In this document: in pieces, positions 2,290 through 52,931 of the stretch
Position numbering within the stretch: position 1 is the stretch's first letter
Layout of the letters: each line of letters opens with the position of its first letter
Origin: Corallococcus coralloides DSM 2259
Lineage (GTDB): Bacteria; Myxococcota; Myxococcia; Myxococcales; Myxococcaceae
Length of the DNA: 64,000 bases
Assembly (NCBI RefSeq): GCF_000255295.1
Contig: NC_017030.1
Coordinates: forward strand, 2,542,001-2,606,000
Reading direction: 5' to 3'
Made by a program: the position numbers and the translations under genes
The notes under the pieces: generated by a model
What the model was told of the DNA's origin: nothing
The model's input: the letters and a program-made list of their open reading frames with translations, nothing else
The model's database searches: none

Positions 2290-5154
2290 CTACTGGACGA
2301 GCACCTGGATGACCTGCTCCGAGGTGTTGCCGGCGGCGTCCGTGGCCTGAAGGAGCACGGCGTTGTAGCCGGGGCTCGAGAAGGCCACCGTGTGCGCGGC
2401 AATGTTCGTCCCCGCGCCGACGTCCGCCGTGTGGATCCAGTTGGCGGTCACCCGCACCGGGGTCAGGTCCGTGACCTCCGTGAGGATGTCCACCACCCAG
2501 GGCTGGGGGACATCGAGCGCGGGGGAGAGGACGCGGAGGACTGGCGCGGTGCGGTCCACCGTCACCTCCATGCTCCGGGTCGCGGTGCCGCCACTGGTAT
2601 CAATGACGGTGAGGGTGAGGGTGTGCTCGCCCTCTGGCAGCTCCAGCCAGGTCACGACGTGGCCGCCGCTGAGGTCCGGCGTGAGGCGCAGGGGAGCGCC
2701 ACCGTCGATGGTGAGCAGGACCGCGCTGATGGCCGAGCCACTGGAGCCGGGCGTGGCCCAACCACACGCCTTGATCACTTCCGCGGACGTGTAGCGCGGC
2801 ATGTTGCACATGGTGAGGTCAGGGGGAGCCGAGTCGTGGTTCACCACGTGGATGGCGGTGGTGCAGGAAGCGCTGAGGCCCGCTGCGTCCGTGGCGGTGT
2901 ACGTCACCGCCGTGGTCCCCAGGGGATAGGTCCCAGCGGAAGGGCCGCTGATCGTCGCGCCACACGCGTCTGAAGCGGTGGCCTCCCCGGGAATGACGAA
3001 GGCTCCCTCCGGGCCCGTGGCTTCCACGATGCGCTCGGCCGGACAGGTGATGACGGGGGCCGTGGTGTCGACGACGGTGACCGTGGCCGTGCAGGAGTCG
3101 CTCGACTGCCCGTCGGAAACCGTCAACGAGACGGAGTGGCTCCCCGGGCCGAACGGACCCGAGGGGGATTGGGTGAGGATGAGGGGCGAGGGCTGCTGAT
3201 CCGGATCATGGCTTCCGTCATCCACGCTCGCCTGGGCGCTACAGGTGATGGCGCTGGCGCTGACGGTGACGTCCTTGCAGACAGCGACAGGCGGGACGTT
3301 GGTGGAGCAGGCCAGGCTGACGGGTGCGCTGCCGCTGTTGTTGGTCTCCACGCATTCGGTTTCCCGGCCGACGCCCGTGCCATCGTTGTCCGCCACGGCC
3401 CAGATCTCCGCGGTCCCGCCCGGGGCGGAGGCGAGCAAGAGGGTTGCGACCGCGCCATGGCCGGCGGTGAGCACGGAGGGGAGGGTGGCCACGCCCAGCA
3501 GCGTGCCGCCCGCGGTGGGATTGCCCAGGTAGAAGGCGACGGGCAGCCCGGCGGAGACGGCGGCATCCCCCTGATTGTAGACATGCGCGTTGAGACTGAG
3601 GGCTCCGGTCGTCCGGTCGCACCCGGCGCTGACCTCCGTCACCGTGACATCCGCGGCGGCAAAAGGATTGGTGGAGCCGGTGCCCTGGCTGTTGGAGCGG
3701 AAGGTATTGAGCCCGGGGGTCCGCCAGTTATCGATGGGGTGCGTGGGGACGGTGCCATCGTCGTTGATGTGGGTGACGGAATACGCGTGCTGGTTCCAGA
3801 TGCGGCGGGTGTTCACCCAACCATCCGAGCGGTCGCGGAACACGCGGATGCCCGTGGCACCGGGGAAGCCGTAGTTGTTCGAGGCGACGACGATCTCCGC
3901 GTTGTCGTCACCATCCACGTCGACGATGAGCGGGTTCTCGTAGGTCGTCCCGGAGGCATGCTCCACGCTGAAGCGCACCGCGCCAGTCGCACCGTCATAG
4001 ATGCGCAGGCGGACCTCGTCGGCGTAGACCACCTCCGCCTTCCCATCCCCTTCGAAGTCGAACGTGGACGACCCCGTCATGTTCGAGCTCCCGTCCTGGA
4101 CGGGGCTGGACCACTTGATGGTGCCATTCGTTTCGAAGACGGTGTACCGCGTGGCGCCAGCCACACCGATCTCCGGCAGGCCGTCCGCGTCGAAGTCGGC
4201 GATGTTGGGCGCGCCACCGTTGCCGCCGCCGGGGAGGACCTGGGTCCAGAGCAGGGTGCAGTCGTCATCCATCAGCGAGACTCGACCGGCGGACACCACC
4301 ACGACCTCTCCGTGGGGATCGCTGTCGAAGTTGGCCACGCCGGCCAGTCCATGCCCGATGTTCGTGTTCCTGCACTTGAGCGTGCCGTCATGGCGGTAGA
4401 TGGCCCTGCCATTGACCACTTCCCGCAGGCCGTCACCGTCAATGTCCGCCGCGAACGAGATGGGACCGGTGGACTGGCCACCCATGCCATCCATCCCTGA
4501 CCACTTCAGCACGCCCGTATTGCTGAAGACCTGGTTGCCGTTGATGATCTCCACGGTGCCATCGCCGTCCAGGTCCGAGAACGAGACGCCTCCCCAGTTG
4601 TTCAGCGTTCCCTCCGTCCGGAACTTGAAGGCGCCGGTGTTCTCGAAGCAGAGGATGCCGCCGCCACTCGATGGCATGGCGCACAGCTCCACCAGGCCGT
4701 CACCGTCGATGTCCGCGCCAGCCACGCTCGCGGCTCCCCGCACGCGCAGGGCCGGGTCCGTCACGGTCCACAGTTCGCTGCCGTCCGCGCCGCTGATGGC
4801 ACGCAAGACGCCATCCGTCGTGTAGTTGGCGCCCGCGAAGGAGCTGAAGATGACGTCTGGGATTCCATCGCCGTTCACCTCCACGACGATGGGCGTCATC
4901 ATGACCTGCTTGTGCTGTGGCAGGAGGGTGCTTCCACTCCAAGCCCACTCCAGTTCCGGCTCGAAGTTGGGATTGAAGGGCGGTTGGACCACGCACTCGC
5001 CATTGGCCGCTGCTTCGGCCTGTCCCAGCGGAGGCTGTGGCTGTCCCTCCTCCCGGGTCTGGCCACAGGCATTCATCAAGAACAGAGCGACGGCGGACAA
5101 CCGGATGTCAGCCGTCAATAACGGTGATTTCCTTCGCTGCTTCACGGGGGCCAT
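2290..5154 (-). CDS. FG-GAP/VCBS repeat lipoprotein with CARDB and HYR domains
   Basis: A 954-residue surface lipoprotein. The N-terminus has a basic stretch, a hydrophobic core and lipobox FLMNAC, followed by a charged linker. Residues about 60-480 hold repeated FG-GAP/VCBS blades with Ca-binding-like motifs (DVNGDGIPDV, DIDGDGLVEL, DLDGDGTVEI, DFDADGLPEI, DVDGDDNAEI), which predict an integrin-type propeller. Then come a CARDB-like domain (HVYNQGDAAVSAGLPV), a PKD/Ig segment, a HYR domain (TAPVITCPAERIVEA, ATDAAGLSASCTT) and a final Ig-like domain. The ATG at 5154 has GAGGAAG just upstream; a GTG at 5169 is an alternative without a ribosome site. The role is probably adhesion or matrix contact; the substrate is unknown. 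Confidence 0.85.
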   Translation of the reverse strand: MAPVKQRRKSPLLTADIRLSAVALFLMNACGQTREEGQPQPPLGQAEAAANGECVVQPPFNPNFEPELEWAWSGSTLLPQHKQVMMTPIVVEVNGDGIPDVIFSSFAGANYTTDGVLRAISGADGSELWTVTDPALRVRGAASVAGADIDGDGLVELCAMPSSGGGILCFENTGAFKFRTEGTLNNWGGVSFSDLDGDGTVEIINGNQVFSNTGVLKWSGMDGMGGQSTGPISFAADIDGDGLREVVNGRAIYRHDGTLKCRNTNIGHGLAGVANFDSDPHGEVVVVSAGRVSLMDDDCTLLWTQVLPGGGNGGAPNIADFDADGLPEIGVAGATRYTVFETNGTIKWSSPVQDGSSNMTGSSTFDFEGDGKAEVVYADEVRLRIYDGATGAVRFSVEHASGTTYENPLIVDVDGDDNAEIVVASNNYGFPGATGIRVFRDRSDGWVNTRRIWNQHAYSVTHINDDGTVPTHPIDNWRTPGLNTFRSNSQGTGSTNPFAAADVTVTEVSAGCDRTTGALSLNAHVYNQGDAAVSAGLPVAFYLGNPTAGGTLLGVATLPSVLTAGHGAVATLLLASAPGGTAEIWAVADNDGTGVGRETECVETNNSGSAPVSLACSTNVPPVAVCKDVTVSASAITCSAQASVDDGSHDPDQQPSPLILTQSPSGPFGPGSHSVSLTVSDGQSSDSCTATVTVVDTTAPVITCPAERIVEATGPEGAFVIPGEATASDACGATISGPSAGTYPLGTTAVTYTATDAAGLSASCTTAIHVVNHDSAPPDLTMCNMPRYTSAEVIKACGWATPGSSGSAISAVLLTIDGGAPLRLTPDLSGGHVVTWLELPEGEHTLTLTVIDTSGGTATRSMEVTVDRTAPVLRVLSPALDVPQPWVVDILTEVTDLTPVRVTANWIHTADVGAGTNIAAHTVAFSSPGYNAVLLQATDAAGNTSEQVIQVLVQ

Positions 5155-44098: not shown

Positions 44099-47000
44099 CT
44101 ATTCAGCCGCGGTCTGGAGTTCCTGCGCCGGGACTGGCTTGTCCGCCGAGGCAGGGACCTTGCCGTCGAGCGCGAGGTAGATGTTGAACCACGCGAGGTA
44201 CGCGCGCCAGGCCGGGTCGCGCTGCTCGATGAGCGTCCGCCGCGCTTGTTCCATCCGCTGGGGCACGTCGAAAGGCATCCGCGTCTTGTCCTCGGATTGC
44301 AGCTGCGCCGCGAACCAGAGCACGTCCAACTGGCCCGCATCGACCGGCGCGTGCGTGCGCGCCATCAGCGAGTCGGCGTGCTCCAGCGCCTTGCCCAGCC
44401 ACTGCGCCGCCTGCGCAGGGTCGCGGCGGTCCACGGCGTTCTCCGCCAGGCGCAGCTCCGCCAGCGTCACCGCGCGGATGTCCTCGTCGCGATCCAGCTC
44501 GTCGAACTGCTCCAGGAACAGCGCGCGCCGCTGCTCCAGCGCCCGGGCGGCGGCGTCCATGCGCCCCAGCCGCGTCTCCGCGTTGGCGCGCAGCCCCGCG
44601 GCGATGATGCGATACGCGCGCTGCACGAACTTGGGCGTGGCGTGCGCCTGCCTCAGCGTGGCCTTCACGGCGGGCGTCGCCAGGTCCCGGTCCACCTGGT
44701 CCAGGTCCTCCAGCGCGCGCTGGGGCTGGTCCGCGCCCAGCGCCGCGCCGCAGCGGGCCAGCCGCACCACCAGCCGGTTGCGCAGGCCCTCCTCGTCACG
44801 GGGGCCGGCTTCGATGCCGGGCAGCGCGCGGTCGTAGAGCGTCAGGGCCCGTTCGAACCGGCCCGCGGCCAGGTTGTAGAGCGCCGCGCGGTCCGTCACC
44901 AACGGGAGGAACCGCTCCATCTTCGGCGTGGCCTCCACCGTGGCCAGGGCCTTGTCCGCCGCCTGCGCGGCCTCCGCCTCGCGATTGACGTGCAGGAGCG
45001 CCCGGGCCCGGGCCAGGGAGACCGACAGTCCCGCGCCGTTGTCCGTGTAGGGCAGCTTGTCGCGCTCGTCCAGGTAGCCCAGGGCGATGTGGTAGTTGCC
45101 CACCTGCGTGTGCAGCAGCCCCAGCGCGCCGAGGATCATGGCCTTGTAGCGCGCGTTGTTGCGAACCAGGTCCAGGGCGACCAGGTAGTGCCGGTTGGCG
45201 CGCTCGGCGGCGGCGGGGTTGCGGCCTCGCAGGAAGTCCTCGTGGTGGATGGCCCCCATGAGGGCCTGCACCTCGCGCTGGTTCTTGAGCTCCTGCCACG
45301 CCGCGCGCAGCTCCGCGAGGCCGGTCTTCACCGCCTGGGCATGGGCGTCGTCATCCAGCTTGGACAGCCGGCGCGTCGTCACGTAGGCCTTCACGAAGTG
45401 CGAGAGTGATTTGGCCTTGCCCGGCACCTCCGTGGTGACCTCCTTGATCACCACCTCGGGAGCGACGCCCGCGCGCAGGCGCAGGCTCATGGATTCCACC
45501 GCGCTCTCCAGCGAGCCCGTCCTGCGCGTCACGAGGTCGAAGTCCGCGCGCGCCTCGTCCATCCGGTCTCGCGCCATGCGGCGGTAGGCGCGGCCCATCA
45601 GCGCGCGGCGGAACAGCCGCTCCGCCCGGCGCCGCTCCTCGGTGCCTGCTGGTGCGTCGTCGACGTAGAGCGTCGCCAAAGCTTCCATCACGCCATCGGC
45701 GCCCAGGCTCGCCGCGCGCTCGGCGGCGTCCTGCACCACCATTCGGCGGCGGAGCGGATCCGTCTGCTGTTTGTAGAACGCGACCAGGGCGTCCCGGACG
45801 GGGCGGGGAGGGCGCTCCTCGTTCAATGCATTGACGTGGCGGCCCAGCTCCAGGGCGAACGCGTACGGCGTCCCCGGGGGCTCCGCCGCGAGCGCCTGGG
45901 CCATGGCGGCGTCCGCCTCCGCGTAGGGGCGTCCCCGGTACAGGGCGCGGACCGCGCCGCGCGCGAAGTCGAGCTGGTCGTCCTGCTTGAAGACCTTGTT
46001 CTGGGAGAGCTTGATGCCGGCGGCGACCAGCGCCTGCCGGTCATCGAGCTCGCGGTACAGCGCGTCCGCCTGTTCGTACCAGCCCTCCAGCACCGCGCGC
46101 GGCGTGGTGTCCGTCAGCTGGGCCGCCTCCAGCTCCTGGCGGGCGAGCGTGAAGTCGCCGGACGACTGCGCCAGCTCGCTGCGCACGACGTGCCGGTAGA
46201 CGGCGGAGGGCGGGCTGGGCGCGGCGGCGGGGTCCAGGGCCGCCATGCGTTGGCGTTCGGCCTCCTGCAGCTCGTCCACCATGCGGCCCCGGTCGCGCTC
46301 CCTCAGGGCCTTCCGGTGGGCGATGAGGATGCGCAGCGGCTCCGACAGTCCGGCGGTGACGGGGTCGTCCACCTTCGGCATCTGGCGGGCGTAGAAGTCC
46401 GCGGCGTCGAAGTCGCCGTAGGCCAGGTGCAGCTGGCTCAGGCGCATCATCAACAACCGGCGGAGCTTGGGCCGGGTCTCGAGCAGCAGGCGCTGGCGGT
46501 AGAGGATGAGCTGATCCGCGCGCCGGCCCACCATGCCCAGCTCCTCGCTGAGGCGCTTCACGTCCCAGTCGCCGGGCACCTGTCCATCCAGCGGCAGTCG
46601 ATACACGTCCAGCGACTGACCCCGGGAGCAGGTCGTGATGAGCGACGTGGCGGTGGGGGACGGGTACTCGCAGTTCCACGCCTCGCTGGTGAGCTGGTCC
46701 GGGCTGGCCGCGGCGGCCAGGGCGGGCGCGTCGTCGCGGTCGGAGGCGAAGGGCACGCGGAACAGCACCCCGCTGTCGCTCGCGTCAATCACCCCGTCCC
46801 CGTTGGAGTCGGTGAAGAACTGCACCACGTACAGCGAGCGTCCATCGCGCGCGAACACCGGCTGGCCCGTCTGCCCCGGGATGTCCAGCGTCAGCGGGAC
46901 GGGGGCCGCGCCGGGCACATCCAACCGGACGGCCTCCAGGTGCGGCGCAGCTCGCGCGGCGAAGCCCGGCCCCACCTCCTGCACGGAGCGTTGGACCGGG

Positions 47001-47569
47001 ACGTACACCAGCCAGCGCCCATCCGGGGAGAAGGTGGGGCTGGTCAGGTTGCGGTCGAGCAGCGGCGTCACGTGCCACCCGGACCCCAGCGCCACCTTCG
47101 ACAGCCGCAGGTCGCCCTGGATGGTCGCGCGGCTCACCAACGCGATGTGCGTGTCGTCGATCCACTCCGCCTGCAGCGCGCTGAGCTCCTCCTCCAGACA
47201 GTGGCGCTCCTTGGCCTCGGGCAGATCCCGCACGCAGAGCTGTCCGCCGGCCTGGGTGCGGAACGAGATGTAGAGCAGCTGCTTGCCATTGGGGCTGATG
47301 CGCGGCCACGTCACGTCCGCGCCTTCGTCGAAGAGGCGGCGCTCGCGGCCCTTCTCCAGGTCCTGGACGAAGATCTCCGTCGCGATGTCCCGGTTGGACA
47401 CGAACAGCAGCGAGTTCTCGTCGGGCCCCAGCTGCCCCAGGAACTGGTCGCCCATGCCCACGGTGAGCCGCTCGGGCAGGACCATGCCTCCGTCGTTCTC
47501 GTCGTCCTGGGCCCAGGCTCCGCCCGCGACGAGCACGGCCAGGGCCAGGACCCATCGGCCAGGGCGCAT
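44099..47569 (-). CDS. TolB-like propeller and TPR protein, third gene of YdbH-type operon
   Basis: A 1156-residue exported protein (signal MRPGRWVLALAVLVAGGAWA). Residues about 35-340 are a WD40-like PD40/TolB propeller: PRISPNGKQLLYISF, SPTFSPDGRWLVYV, GQPVFARDGRSLYVVQF. The remaining 750 residues are helical TPR-like repeats (YGDFDAADFYARQMPKV, QSSGDFTLARQELEAAQL, GNYHIALGYLDERDKL, LYNLAAGRFERALTLYDRAL). The ATG overlaps the stop of the DUF1318 lipoprotein gene by one base (TGATG), so they are co-translated. No exact counterpart in the E. coli ydbH operon is known to me. A scaffold in the periplasm is the likeliest role. Confidence 0.82.
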   Translation of the reverse strand: MRPGRWVLALAVLVAGGAWAQDDENDGGMVLPERLTVGMGDQFLGQLGPDENSLLFVSNRDIATEIFVQDLEKGRERRLFDEGADVTWPRISPNGKQLLYISFRTQAGGQLCVRDLPEAKERHCLEEELSALQAEWIDDTHIALVSRATIQGDLRLSKVALGSGWHVTPLLDRNLTSPTFSPDGRWLVYVPVQRSVQEVGPGFAARAAPHLEAVRLDVPGAAPVPLTLDIPGQTGQPVFARDGRSLYVVQFFTDSNGDGVIDASDSGVLFRVPFASDRDDAPALAAAASPDQLTSEAWNCEYPSPTATSLITTCSRGQSLDVYRLPLDGQVPGDWDVKRLSEELGMVGRRADQLILYRQRLLLETRPKLRRLLMMRLSQLHLAYGDFDAADFYARQMPKVDDPVTAGLSEPLRILIAHRKALRERDRGRMVDELQEAERQRMAALDPAAAPSPPSAVYRHVVRSELAQSSGDFTLARQELEAAQLTDTTPRAVLEGWYEQADALYRELDDRQALVAAGIKLSQNKVFKQDDQLDFARGAVRALYRGRPYAEADAAMAQALAAEPPGTPYAFALELGRHVNALNEERPPRPVRDALVAFYKQQTDPLRRRMVVQDAAERAASLGADGVMEALATLYVDDAPAGTEERRRAERLFRRALMGRAYRRMARDRMDEARADFDLVTRRTGSLESAVESMSLRLRAGVAPEVVIKEVTTEVPGKAKSLSHFVKAYVTTRRLSKLDDDAHAQAVKTGLAELRAAWQELKNQREVQALMGAIHHEDFLRGRNPAAAERANRHYLVALDLVRNNARYKAMILGALGLLHTQVGNYHIALGYLDERDKLPYTDNGAGLSVSLARARALLHVNREAEAAQAADKALATVEATPKMERFLPLVTDRAALYNLAAGRFERALTLYDRALPGIEAGPRDEEGLRNRLVVRLARCGAALGADQPQRALEDLDQVDRDLATPAVKATLRQAHATPKFVQRAYRIIAAGLRANAETRLGRMDAAARALEQRRALFLEQFDELDRDEDIRAVTLAELRLAENAVDRRDPAQAAQWLGKALEHADSLMARTHAPVDAGQLDVLWFAAQLQSEDKTRMPFDVPQRMEQARRTLIEQRDPAWRAYLAWFNIYLALDGKVPASADKPVPAQELQTAAE

Positions 47570-48108
47570 CAGCACTTCTTCTCTCCCCAGGTGCCGTCCT
47601 CGGCCTCCACCCAGCCGCCGCAGACGACGCCTTCCGCGTGCGCCTGGCGCCAGTTCTCGCGCAGCGTCGCCTCCGGCACGCCGGGGCGCACGGTCTTCAT
47701 CCACTGCCACAGCTGGCGCCGGGCCCGGTTCACCCGCTCCACCAGGGCGGTGTCATCCGCGGACACGCGCCCGGCCGTGCACTGGCGCCGGGTGACCACC
47801 AGGAGCCCGTCCTTGCCCTCGCCCACGCAGTGGCGCCGCACCAGGTCGTCCATGCGGTCCGCCTGCGTCTTGCCCAGGTTCTCCACCAGCGGCGGAGGCT
47901 GGATGCCCAGGTCCTCCAGCTGGTTGGGCGTGAGCGGCACCGGCGTGGGGTTCATGCCCGCGCGCGCCAGCCGCTGCTCCACGTCCTTGTACGAGCCCGC
48001 GGCCTGCTCCTCGAGCGCGGTCGCCCGGTCCACCATGACGATCTCCGGCGCGCTGATGCACCCGGAAGCGGCGAGGGCGGCCACGAGCAGCAACCCACGG
48101 TGTCTCAT
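47569..48108 (-). CDS. DUF1318 (YdbL-like) lipoprotein
   Basis: A 179-residue lipoprotein: MRHRGLLLVAALAASGC then ISAPEIVMVDRATALEEQAAG. The C-terminal 75 residues match the DUF1318/YdbL pattern: LVERVNRARRQLWQWM, VPEATLRENWRQAHAEG and the final GWVEAEDGTWGEK. In E. coli, YnbE (a small lipoprotein) and YdbL (soluble) are separate partners of YdbH; here a lipoprotein N-terminus and a YdbL-like C-terminus are one chain. ATG overlaps the TGA of the AsmA/YdbH-like gene (ATGA), and its own stop overlaps the next gene. Confidence 0.82.
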   Translation of the reverse strand: MRHRGLLLVAALAASGCISAPEIVMVDRATALEEQAAGSYKDVEQRLARAGMNPTPVPLTPNQLEDLGIQPPPLVENLGKTQADRMDDLVRRHCVGEGKDGLLVVTRRQCTAGRVSADDTALVERVNRARRQLWQWMKTVRPGVPEATLRENWRQAHAEGVVCGGWVEAEDGTWGEKKC

Positions 48109-51100
48109 TGCAGGGCCTCTGGAGGGGTCATGGAGGTGATGAGGCGGTCGACGATGGGGCCCAGGGGGATGCCCCGGATCTCGTTGATGCTGATCAGCCG
48201 GGCCAGGCCGCCCATGGTGATGAGCAGGCTGCCGAAGCCCTGCTTGAAACTGACGCGCACGTGCTCCGGATACCCCAGGCCCAGCGCGTAGCGGACGCGG
48301 TTGGTGGCGGGGTCGGTGTGGTGCGGGTCCTCCAGGTCCAGCAGGTCCAGCAGGTGCCGGTTGCCGATGCGCAGAATCTCCGCGCGCCCGTTGATGCTGC
48401 GGTCCCTGGCGGAGATGACCATGGCGGCGTTGCCGTCGAAGGGCTCACCCCGGGAGGACTTCACGCCCGTCACCCGCACGTGGGTCTCCAGCGTGGAGTT
48501 CTTGCCCTGCCAGTCCAGCATGCACTGGCCGGTGATGCGTCCTCCCCGGACGCCCATCTCCAGCTGGCTCATGGAGAACACGTTCTGGTTGATGGCCAGG
48601 TTGCCCGCCAGCGGCGCGATGGTCACCCACGGCGTGGTGATGCGGTCCGCGGACATGAAGCCGCTGCGCGTGAGCAGCGGGTGCTGATCCGCGAAGCGCA
48701 GCATCGAGTACGGATTCACGTCCAGGTCGTTCAGGAGTCGCACGCCGTCCTGGGAGACCTCCACGTTCTCCGTCAGCGGCACGTCGCCGTTGAGGGCCTC
48801 CACCACGATGCCGGACTCGGGCATCCGCACGTTCACGTCCTGGAGCTTGAGGTTGGAGGAGGTGCGGAAGACCACCAGGTCCGGCGACGCCACCCGGAAG
48901 TCCACCGTGACCTTGCCGCTGCCTTCGACCTGGCCGGGCCGCGCGAGGTGGGCCAGGTCCTGCTCCAGCGAGCCCCGGAGCCCCATGCGCTGCTGCTCGT
49001 TGCTCAGGTCGAGCCGTCCCCGGACCTTCAGCAGCGTCTGGGTGCCACCATTGGACAGCTTCAGGTCCGGGATGCGGATGACGCCGGTGGGCTTGCGCAC
49101 GACGGAGAACGACGCCTCCACATCCTGGACGGGGTAGGGCAGCGCCGGCTTCTGTTCCATCGAGCGGACCTTCACGAGCTGCTTCAGCTCGATGTCCCCC
49201 TTCTCCCATTGGTCGGTGAAGGTGGCGGTGCTGTCGCTGGACAGGTCCGCGAAGGTGAACCGGCGGTCGTTCATGTTGACGGTGAGCTTCTCCACCGCCA
49301 GGGTCGTGCGGACGGTGCGCTGGGAGCCTTCGGCGTGGGACTCGCCCTGCCAGCGCAGCGCGGGGACGTTGATGGTCTGGTCCGCCTGCTTCCAGCGCAC
49401 GCCGCGCAGGTCCATGTGGGCCTTGCCCTCGAAGCTGGCGGCGCGCGGAGGCATGGGGGCCAGGCGGAAGCTTCCGTCGGAGCCCAGGTGCGTGATGAGC
49501 CCGGTCAGGGTGCCGTGCAGCTCGCCGGTCATCGCGAGCTTGGAGGGGTCTACTTCCGGGGGTACCCGCGCCTTCGCCAGCAGCGGCGACAAGGGGCCCA
49601 GCGGCGGGAAGTCGCCCTTCACGTCCATGCGGAGCGCGCGGGCCTTCGGGTTGAACGCCAGCGCCGCGTCGGCGGCGACCTTCAGGCCCTCACGGCCGTT
49701 GAGCCCCAGCTTGAGCGAGAGCTTGCGGCGGTCGACGTCGAACGTCAGCGTCTGGTGCTGGGTGCCCGCGTCGGTCTCTCCGAGGCGCAGCCCTTCGACC
49801 TTCAGGTCCAGGTCTCCCTTGTGCTTCCACGCGTCGCCCTGTGAGCGCAGCGCGACGGTGGTGCTGGCGGCCGAGATGTCGTCCCAGCCGGGCTTCCCCA
49901 GGCGCAGCTCCGTCCGGTGGTCCACGCGCGGCGAGGGCGCGAAGAGGGCCGTCAGTCTGCCCTTGGAGGTCAGCGCCACGGCGAGCTGCTTCCAGGGGAA
50001 GCGTGCGGCGACGTCATCCGGGATGAAGGGCCGGGCCATGACGAGGTCCGGCAGTTGGGCATCCAGCGTGTACGCCACGTCGTCGGTGCCCTTCGTGGCG
50101 TCCAGCGATGCGTGCAGCGTGCCCACGTCCAGCTCCAGCTTTGCGCGGGCCTTGCTCAGCCGTGGCTCCTCCATCGTGGGGAAGGCGTCCGTCACGTGGA
50201 GCTGCACGCGCGCGGGACCCTTCAGCACCTCGCGGCCCTCGGCGGTGACCCGCAGTGCCTCCACGGGCAGGTCCGCCTTCAGCGCGAAGGGGGGCTTCGC
50301 CGTCAGGGGCAGCTGGAGGTTGAAGCCCAGGCGCTCCGCCAGCGCTCGGTATCCGGAGGCACGGACATCCAAGGCTTCCACCCTGGCAGCCAGGGCCGCG
50401 TCCCCCGCGACCCTGAAGGGCGAGGCGAGGTCGGGCCGCAGCTGATGCCCCGTCAGCTCGCCGGAGGCCTTCGGAACGCGGATCGGCGTGGCCCCTCCGA
50501 CGTCGAGCCCCTGGAGCGCGAACGCGAGCCGTGCGGCCAGTCCCTGGGGTGCATCCGGGGTCGCCGTCAGCGAGATGCGTCCCTCGCCAAGCTCCACCTT
50601 GAGCGCCTCCTGCACGAGGAGGAGCTTCGCCACGTCCACGTCCAGCCCGAGCCGGCCCTGGGCTCCCAGCTGGGGCATGTCGCTGAGCGTGACCTCCCGG
50701 GCCTCCAGGTGCACCTTGCCGCGCTCCAGGGAGAACGGACGCAGGTCCTCGGGGATCCACCGCAGCAGCCGCCCCAGGTCCACGTCCGCCAGGGCTTGGG
50801 TCAGGAGGGGAGGAACTTCCGTCGCATCCGGGAGCACCACTTGGGCCTGGACCTCGGCGCTGTCGGTCAGCTGCGTGCGCGCCAGCTCGATGGTGGTGTG
50901 TTGCTTGCCAGCGTCGAACTTCGCCGTCACCGCGCCGTGCAGCAGCGAGCGGAGCGTGAAGCGCGGATCGAAGTTCTGCTTCGCGACGTCCAGGTCCACC
51001 TTCACGTGCGCGGCGTCCGTGCTGGCTTCCACCGACAGGGCCAGCTCCAGCAGGGCCTCGGCGGCGGGCGCTTCACGGTTCAACGTCAGGGCCAGGGGCT

Positions 51101-51776
51101 TCTCGGCCTTGCCGAGGTCCACGAGGAGCTTCCAGCTCTTGTCCTGCGGCTTCGCTTCGATTCCGGCTTCGAGGCCGCGCAGCGACCAGCGGTCCACCAC
51201 CGCGCCGCCCTGGACGCGGACATGCGTCAGCGCCACGTTGGACAGCTGGATGCTCGAGACGGGGAACGGGGAGGCGAAGAGGTCCGCGACCTGCCGGGAG
51301 GTTCCGGGGGACACTTCCTCCACCGGTTCGGGCTCCGGCGGTCCGGTCAGGTTCGTGAGCGAGGTGGTCCCTTGGTCATCCGCCACCAGGACGACGGTCG
51401 CGTCGCGCACCGCCACCCGCTCCACCCGGACCGGTCCCTTCACCAGGGCCCCGAACGACCACGCGGCCTCCAGCGTGCCGACGCGCACGAACTCGGGCGC
51501 GACGTCCTGGAACGGCGGTGGGGTCCACACCACCAGGCCTTCCATGCGCAGCCCGGAGAGCACGTCGATCCGCGCGGTCTGGTAGTCCAGCCGCACGCCC
51601 GAGGCCGCTTCCACCTGCGAGACGACGTGCGGCTTCAGCCAGGGGTGGTCGAGGTGGTGGAGCGCGGTCACGACCGCGATGAGGAGGAGGACGAACGTCG
51701 CGAGGAGGATCAGGGCCGCGCCCGCGATGATTCGCGTCAACCGCCGACGAGGCCGCTCAGCACCGGGGGAGTCCAT
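48105..51776 (-). CDS. AsmA/YdbH-like intermembrane lipid-transport protein
   Basis: A 1223-residue protein with one N-terminal membrane helix (IIAGAALILLATFVLLLIAV, about 16-36) and a very long beta-rich periplasmic region. N-terminal AsmA-type features: ALHHLDHPWLKPHVVSQVEA, SGVRLDYQTARIDVLSGLRM. The C-terminal 300 residues (VRMPESGIVVEALNGDVPL to GGLARLISINEIRGIPLGPIVDRL) look like the YdbH dicarboxylate-transport/AsmA C-terminal module. Such proteins form a hydrophobic groove carrying phospholipids between inner and outer membranes (established for E. coli TamB, YhdP and YdbH). The YdbL-like gene follows by overlap, which strengthens the YdbH assignment over TamB. Confidence 0.85.
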   Translation of the reverse strand: MDSPGAERPRRRLTRIIAGAALILLATFVLLLIAVVTALHHLDHPWLKPHVVSQVEAASGVRLDYQTARIDVLSGLRMEGLVVWTPPPFQDVAPEFVRVGTLEAAWSFGALVKGPVRVERVAVRDATVVLVADDQGTTSLTNLTGPPEPEPVEEVSPGTSRQVADLFASPFPVSSIQLSNVALTHVRVQGGAVVDRWSLRGLEAGIEAKPQDKSWKLLVDLGKAEKPLALTLNREAPAAEALLELALSVEASTDAAHVKVDLDVAKQNFDPRFTLRSLLHGAVTAKFDAGKQHTTIELARTQLTDSAEVQAQVVLPDATEVPPLLTQALADVDLGRLLRWIPEDLRPFSLERGKVHLEAREVTLSDMPQLGAQGRLGLDVDVAKLLLVQEALKVELGEGRISLTATPDAPQGLAARLAFALQGLDVGGATPIRVPKASGELTGHQLRPDLASPFRVAGDAALAARVEALDVRASGYRALAERLGFNLQLPLTAKPPFALKADLPVEALRVTAEGREVLKGPARVQLHVTDAFPTMEEPRLSKARAKLELDVGTLHASLDATKGTDDVAYTLDAQLPDLVMARPFIPDDVAARFPWKQLAVALTSKGRLTALFAPSPRVDHRTELRLGKPGWDDISAASTTVALRSQGDAWKHKGDLDLKVEGLRLGETDAGTQHQTLTFDVDRRKLSLKLGLNGREGLKVAADAALAFNPKARALRMDVKGDFPPLGPLSPLLAKARVPPEVDPSKLAMTGELHGTLTGLITHLGSDGSFRLAPMPPRAASFEGKAHMDLRGVRWKQADQTINVPALRWQGESHAEGSQRTVRTTLAVEKLTVNMNDRRFTFADLSSDSTATFTDQWEKGDIELKQLVKVRSMEQKPALPYPVQDVEASFSVVRKPTGVIRIPDLKLSNGGTQTLLKVRGRLDLSNEQQRMGLRGSLEQDLAHLARPGQVEGSGKVTVDFRVASPDLVVFRTSSNLKLQDVNVRMPESGIVVEALNGDVPLTENVEVSQDGVRLLNDLDVNPYSMLRFADQHPLLTRSGFMSADRITTPWVTIAPLAGNLAINQNVFSMSQLEMGVRGGRITGQCMLDWQGKNSTLETHVRVTGVKSSRGEPFDGNAAMVISARDRSINGRAEILRIGNRHLLDLLDLEDPHHTDPATNRVRYALGLGYPEHVRVSFKQGFGSLLITMGGLARLISINEIRGIPLGPIVDRLITSMTPPEALQ

Positions 51777-52670: not shown

Positions 52671-52931
52671 TCAGGAGCAGGTCTTCGCCTGCTGCTTGCA
52701 GGAGTCGGTACAGGCTGGCGTCTGCGTATCGAGGGTGAGCCGCTCCGCGTAGCCCTGCGCGGAGTCCGGCGGCTGCCTCGAGGCGGGCCGGCCGCGCGGC
52801 TGGCAACTGTCGAGACAGGCGTCGTACTGGTCGCGGCAGGAGGGCGACATGTTCGACGTGTCGAGCGTCGCGCAGCCGGACAGCAGGGACAGGGCGGCCG
52901 CGAAGAGGAGGAGGCCACGGACGAGGTTCAT
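52671..52931 (-). CDS. Small Cys-rich lipoprotein, 86 aa
   Basis: A lipoprotein: MNLVRGLLLFAAALSLLSGC. The mature 65 residues hold SCRDQYDACLDSC and, near the end, ACTDSCKQQAKTCS: seven cysteines beyond the lipobox Cys, arranged as two CxxxCxxxC-type clusters that probably form disulfides. The metallopeptidase gene follows after 5 bp. Such small Cys-cluster lipoproteins are frequent in myxobacteria without assigned roles; an inhibitor or partner of the peptidase is a guess. Confidence 0.8.
   Translation of the reverse strand: MNLVRGLLLFAAALSLLSGCATLDTSNMSPSCRDQYDACLDSCQPRGRPASRQPPDSAQGYAERLTLDTQTPACTDSCKQQAKTCS

Follow-up and report, generated by a model that had tools for sequence, protein, structure and literature searches.

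Does the AsmA-type gene of Corallococcus coralloides DSM 2259 that is followed by a lipoprotein gene with a C-terminal YdbL (DUF1318) domain belong to a lipid bridge of the kind known from Escherichia coli as YdbH-YnbE-YdbL, with the two small partners joined in one chain? The genes lie on the reverse strand of the window, by which we mean the whole stretch of 64,000 nucleotides analysed here (contig NC_017030.1, positions 2,542,001 to 2,606,000); the genome is a single 10.08-Mb contig. In E. coli, YnbE works with YdbH in lipid transport (PMC11784454). We read the C. coralloides locus as a three-gene envelope operon whose first two products probably constitute an inner-to-outer-membrane lipid bridge akin to the E. 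coli system, and we give this reading a probability of roughly two in three. The fusion is well supported by the YdbL sequence and predicted fold, by gene coupling, by co-inheritance, by the absence of classical ynbE and ydbH over the profile cut-offs, and by the existence of a natural split version; the outer-membrane location, the docking of the N-terminal segment, the transport of lipids and the part played by the third gene are what we infer. The features are as follows, in window positions.

48105-51776, reverse strand: AsmA-family bridge-type protein of 1223 residues, with an N-terminal membrane helix and a long beta-rich part (open reading frame list, PF05170)
51231-51713, reverse strand: AsmA N-terminal domain, residues 22-182 of the bridge protein (Pfam), which aligns with the N-termini of AsmA and YdbH
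48198-48920, reverse strand: C-terminal part of the bridge protein, residues 953-1193, distantly alignable to the YdbH C-terminus, residues 593-823 (hhalign)
48105-48108, reverse strand: ATGA stop/start overlap of the AsmA gene and the lipoprotein gene
47569-48108, reverse strand: lipoprotein of 179 residues with a C-terminal DUF1318/YdbL domain and the lipid-bearing Cys17 (lipobox, Pfam)
47989-48060, reverse strand: mature N-terminal segment of the lipoprotein, residues 17-40, a candidate for contact with the bridge (conservation)
47578-47862, reverse strand: DUF1318/YdbL domain, residues 83-177 of the lipoprotein (Pfam and Foldseek)
44099-47569, reverse strand: third operon gene, encoding 1156 residues with a signal peptide, PD40/TolB-like repeats and a TPR-like region

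The operon and its lipoprotein

The sequence-only reading of this window had reported an AsmA-type gene followed by a lipoprotein gene with a 4-bp overlap, and the coordinates of the open reading frames and the shared ATGA confirm it. The operon had been taken to consist of two genes; both are correct, and the coupled third gene at 44099-47569, whose start codon and the lipoprotein stop have one base in common (TGATG), was overlooked. The ATGA overlap is no isolated accident, because it recurs identically in 27 of the 28 further codirectional loci of Myxococcota for which starts were called. In E. coli (NC_000913), ydbH ends at 1445690 and ynbE starts at 1445687, again an overlap of 4 bp.

The lipoprotein follows the bridge gene directly, in the position that YnbE holds, and has 179 residues against the 61 of YnbE. 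It carries a signal peptide and the lipobox ASG-C17, and in this it departs from the soluble periplasmic YdbL of E. coli. The C-terminal DUF1318 domain, previously placed at residues 95-179, was found by Pfam over the slightly wider residues 83-177 (PF07027; 30.3 bits against a cut-off of 27, expect value (E) 6e-7), and nothing else in the genome matches DUF1318 at E ≤ 0.001. An AlphaFold2 model built from 32 sequences has a mean predicted local distance difference test (pLDDT) of 77.5, and beyond about residue 78 the block means are 84-94. Its top match in the PDB by Foldseek, and the one that convinces, is 28oj, a crystal structure of YdbL from E. coli entitled 'Probable chaperone-like protein YdbL' (E 1e-3, probability 1.00, TM-score 0.82 by target and 0.47 by query, root-mean-square deviation 2.1).

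Cys17, D27, L32, E33 and G38 are invariant in the 21 aligned family members, as are G96, E97, N127, R130 and W174 in the DUF1318 region, and all 21 have I, V or L at +2 after the lipid-bearing cysteine. The best conserved part is the segment of residues 17-40, with a mean identity of 0.70 against 0.43-0.56 in the later segments. Residues 18-26 have a pLDDT below 50 in the monomer model, which is weak evidence, the input alignment being poor at the N-terminal end. Under the '+2' rule of E. coli, the protein would be an outer-membrane lipoprotein. The YdbL domain contains cysteines at positions 94, 110, 163 and 179, which could form disulfides; those at 94 and 110 are invariant in the 21 sequences.

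Distribution of the fused and split forms

Co-inheritance was assessed with a profile of the lipoprotein (A2) and a profile of the bridge C-terminus (A3), both run on 195 Myxococcota genomes. The lipoprotein occurs in 88 genomes at E ≤ 0.001, the weakest counted having E 1e-5 over 62 of 183 positions (G016). The bridge C-terminus occurs in 94 genomes at E ≤ 1e-5, and the 88 of these with values below 1e-20 are the same 88 that hold the lipoprotein, a number that includes kin genomes and some that supplied the profile seeds, so that the genomes are not independent; six weak AsmA-only genomes (G110, G163, G034, G184, G033 and G035; E 5e-8 to 7e-6) are excluded from it. Both the lipoprotein and the bridge C-terminus are absent from several genera of the same family. 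At 91 lipoprotein places, one of them a 27-residue piece at a contig end (G008:C585), the bridge match lies codirectionally upstream within 300 bp in 77 and 5.9 kb away in one; in eight it is convergent within 300 bp, and five have no bridge match on the same contig. Convergent neighbours that form no operon are found in one other Myxococcota family (L036-L038, L040, L041 and L043). At L057 (G062) the bridge gene is spread over two frames, by frameshift or sequencing error.

At least 118 loci came out of a pattern scan for the C-terminal motif of DUF1318. The sample is rich in Enterobacteriaceae, and the locus counts are therefore not independent; as the sequences were chosen by motif, the confirmation of DUF1318 in the 118 loci is circular and was not used as support. 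Ten loci were set aside: L097, L099, L141, L181 and L189, which by eye are short, broken or chance frames; L108, L186, L188 and L191, which are truncated or open frames; and L140, whose small lipoprotein is not YnbE by hidden Markov model (HMM). Classing by eye was preferred to the lipobox rule for L101, L120, L121, L129 and L162 (lipoprotein) and for L163 (non-lipoprotein); the L162 protein is identical to that of the Myxococcota locus L035. Among the 118 loci listed, a separate gene matching the YnbE HMM stands beside the 58 non-lipoprotein DUF1318 loci and beside none of the 50 lipoprotein-DUF1318 loci. A YdbH-profile protein is present in 53 of the 58 as against 0 of the 50. For a bridge gene of the broad family to which that of C. 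coralloides belongs, the count is 30 among the 50 and 0 among the 58.

The split version is found at L140, in a Comamonadaceae metagenome-assembled genome, where the bridge (a 733-residue frame), a small lipoprotein (CVTINIYFPAAAAEKAAD...) and a soluble DUF1318 protein are three genes. In its bridge relatives L085, L148, L170, L086 and L112, a lipoprotein with a similar start and DUF1318 are in one chain. The L140 profile reaches these five and others; it adds eight loci to the broad family, which makes 38 of 50, yet it also matches one of the 58, L161, weakly (1.6e-7). L161 itself sits in the YdbH profile (1.6e-27), and the AsmA-type and YdbH groups are therefore linked. The split lipoprotein and DUF1318 genes (L140:4697-5319) have 4-bp overlaps at both joints, given starts at 4697 and 4915. 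A tblastn search for the L140 lipoprotein in plasmids found nothing.

The Myxococcota bridge profile reaches the bridges of Geobacter-type loci directly (best 7.3e-25), and more of them by iteration. Fused loci of Geobacteraceae and other Deltaproteobacteria, Methylomirabilota, Acidobacteria, Nitrospiraceae and Dadabacteria (L146, L087, L076, L086, L112, L148 and L104, assigned by record title), reached by iteration of this profile or linked through that of L140, share with C. coralloides the upstream AsmA-type gene and a single lipoprotein that ends in DUF1318; they differ in an N-terminus of the C..TVNVYFPE type and a longer linker, and they gave no homologue of the third gene. A further group, which we call the Verrucomicrobia type, comprises L110, L159, L183, L101, L184 and L185 (by record title, L110 is from Methylacidiphilaceae and L101 from Bacteroidetes). 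It likewise has lipoprotein and DUF1318 in a single chain, but in all six loci the N-terminus of that chain is YnbE-like in sequence (HMM E 1.5e-4 to 4e-3, owed in part to the signal peptide; hhalign of the mature part alone, E 6.4e-5, Prob 64), and the upstream frames are shorter, with 558-653 residues in L101, L110, L183 and L184 and no Pfam family over the cut-off in the two scanned, L101 and L110. The lipoprotein-YdbL fusion as partner of an AsmA bridge is thus well supported as a widespread architecture of several phyla, and is no local oddity. No account of a fused lipoprotein-YdbL was found in the literature searched, which was partly in excerpt and did not include Kumar et al. 2024 PNAS (PMC11126948) and PMC12447247.

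The bridge protein, the missing YnbE and the rival readings

The bridge had been described as AsmA/YdbH-like, and the first part of the description stands. AsmA (PF05170) matches with E = 2.6e-9 and 36.9 bits against a cut-off of 29.8, the single listed stretch scoring 25.7 and so lying under it; DUF748 (PF05359) matches under its cut-off (E = 1.5e-6). Membership of the YdbH family does not stand, since PF11739 is absent and the AsmA profile scores higher. A distant similarity to YdbH is seen by hhalign: the Myxococcota family profile aligns with the YdbH family alignment at the C-terminus (Prob 97.6, E = 3.9e-12, score 118.1), and when the bridge is cut into parts, the N-terminal parts match each other at E 4e-8 and the C-terminal parts at 1.8e-6, while crossed pairs give about 0.01. 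The controls gave E 0.85-1 for shuffled columns of the Myxococcota profile and E 2.7e-5, score 58.1, for reversed YdbH. E. coli paralogues compared as single sequences, the form in which YhdP was used throughout, gave weak scores. Sequence comparison places the bridge in the AsmA superfamily, with AsmA itself as its closest match overall and YdbH as a distant one. What sets it apart from the AsmA/DUF748 family is its dedicated lipoprotein-YdbL partner gene.

Several results weigh against the equation of this locus with a YdbH bridge. PF11739 matches neither the bridge protein nor anything else in the genome at E ≤ 1. With full-length profiles, AsmA (3.5e-16) is nearer than YdbH (3.9e-12), followed by TamB (1.7e-7); with YdbH as the query, the best local match shifts to the N-terminus (E 7.7e-11); and the middle part of the bridge scores 68.4 with TamB against 60.4 with YdbH. 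The C-terminal part by itself proves nothing, because its scores with YdbH (52.7-58.8) and AsmA (51.9) are alike and do not surpass the 58.1 that the reversed-YdbH control reached with the full profile. In the bridge model (22 sequences, mean pLDDT 42.1), about the first 120 residues are usable, and the groove and its C-terminal edge are not visible. Finally, the N-terminus of the lipoprotein has no PF13617 (YnbE) match and no detectable homology to YnbE by hhalign (E 0.43), the comparison that the sequence-only reading had put forward for it.

The best profile score for AsmA over its cut-off, together with the absence of PF11739, would suit a conventional AsmA/DUF748 protein whose role is something other than the bulk transport of phospholipids, and to which the lipoprotein would be a dedicated accessory with no YdbH equivalence. 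Transport could then be done by other genes, as the same genome has two TamB-like and further AsmA-family genes (C1: 7875217, 8874717, 9790560 and 2279837), possible redundant transporters. We regard this alternative as doubtful, though a serious one. In 53 of the 58 loci with a non-lipoprotein DUF1318, the bridge it accompanies is one of the YdbH profile, and the L140 profile leads to L161, which lies within the YdbH profile.

The second alternative concerns the lipoprotein. The claim that YnbE and YdbL functions are fused held for the YdbL domain, which is indeed part of one lipoprotein, and failed for YnbE homology; as the N-terminus has none that is detectable, a YnbE function is assigned from position alone. 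The protein may be a YdbL-like chaperone on a tether, serving the AsmA protein or some other client, with the outer-membrane contact made elsewhere, for example by the third operon product. The N-terminus without YnbE similarity, the presence of a coupled third gene, and the fact that the only recognisable domain resembles YdbL, the 'chaperone-like' protein of 28oj, are in keeping with such a chaperone. It is nevertheless unlikely, given that the best conserved part is the mature N-terminal segment and not the YdbL domain, and that a small lipoprotein gene is present in the 58 non-lipoprotein loci and L140 while a separate YnbE occurs in 0 of the 50 fused ones. An incidental gene pairing with a chance DUF1318 similarity, which a Pfam score some 3 bits above the cut-off might suggest, is hardly credible in view of the same 88 of 195 genomes for both families, the fold match to 28oj and the five DUF1318-region residues invariant in 21 of 21 sequences.

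The sequence-only reading had counted a separate ynbE paired with another ydbH elsewhere in the genome as evidence against a fusion, and neither PF13617 (best E 0.75) nor PF11739 was found over the cut-off there. Among the 195 Myxococcota genomes, PF13617 matches in none at E ≤ 0.001, and PF11739 in 19 at E ≤ 0.01, of which two are over the cut-off and none is that of C. coralloides. A resemblance of the Myxococcota N-terminus to the Geobacter-type N-terminus (hhalign E 0.004 over 18 columns) was considered and is too weak to claim.

A possible mechanism and the third gene

If the first two products do form an inner-to-outer-membrane lipid bridge, the AsmA-family protein would be anchored in the inner membrane and its beta-groove would span the periplasm. 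The lipoprotein, lipidated at Cys17, would be sent to the outer membrane, and its short conserved N-terminal segment may dock on the C-terminal end of the groove. That it would anchor the end of the bridge at the outer membrane is argued from the YdbH-YnbE analogy; the C-terminus of YdbH has been proposed to contact the outer-membrane lipoprotein (PMC12045153). The YdbL domain, on the same chain as the lipoprotein, could act as a built-in chaperone or gate, a part that falls to a separate soluble protein in E. coli.

The ydbH-ynbE-ydbL locus of E. coli and that of C. coralloides are alike in the order of bridge, lipoprotein and DUF1318, in the 4-bp overlap of the first two genes and in the YdbL fold. 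They differ in that lipoprotein and YdbL are two proteins in the former and one chain in the latter, where moreover the bridge is not PF11739, the N-terminus of the lipoprotein is not PF13617 and a PD40/TPR gene is added. Tentatively, and at somewhat less than even odds, we propose that many phyla have a second type of lipid bridge that depends on DUF1318, in which an AsmA-type protein is capped at the outer membrane by one lipoprotein, with the YdbL domain of that lipoprotein chaperoning its docking segment in cis. This segment would have been exchanged on several occasions (YnbE-like, TVNVYFP-type and the PEIVMVD-TALEEQ type of Myxococcota), and Myxococcota would have added a PD40/TPR periplasmic subunit, giving a three-part trans-envelope machine. 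The existence of natural fusions suggests that a single chain can do the work of both YdbL and the lipoprotein at the outer-membrane end, the two being present in equal numbers, and it makes the idea of YdbL as a chaperone directly testable. In phyla distant from E. coli, the fused form may also serve as a flag for lipid bridges of the AsmA type whose outer-membrane partners can be identified.

The TPR-like match of the third gene product is weak. Of the 40 other Myxococcota loci retrieved, 32, including L044-L047 of other families, have a homologue of this gene downstream and codirectional; none was found in the six convergent loci (L036-L038, L040, L041 and L043) or in two loci at contig ends (L035 and L042). 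Outside Myxococcota the single match among the loci is at L137 (Methylacidimicrobium, 1.4e-59), on the strand opposite to the DUF1318 gene. Also on the reverse strand of the window, at 52671-52931, an open reading frame of 86 residues, with no Pfam family over the cut-off, has a signal peptide, a lipobox-like SGC and several cysteines.

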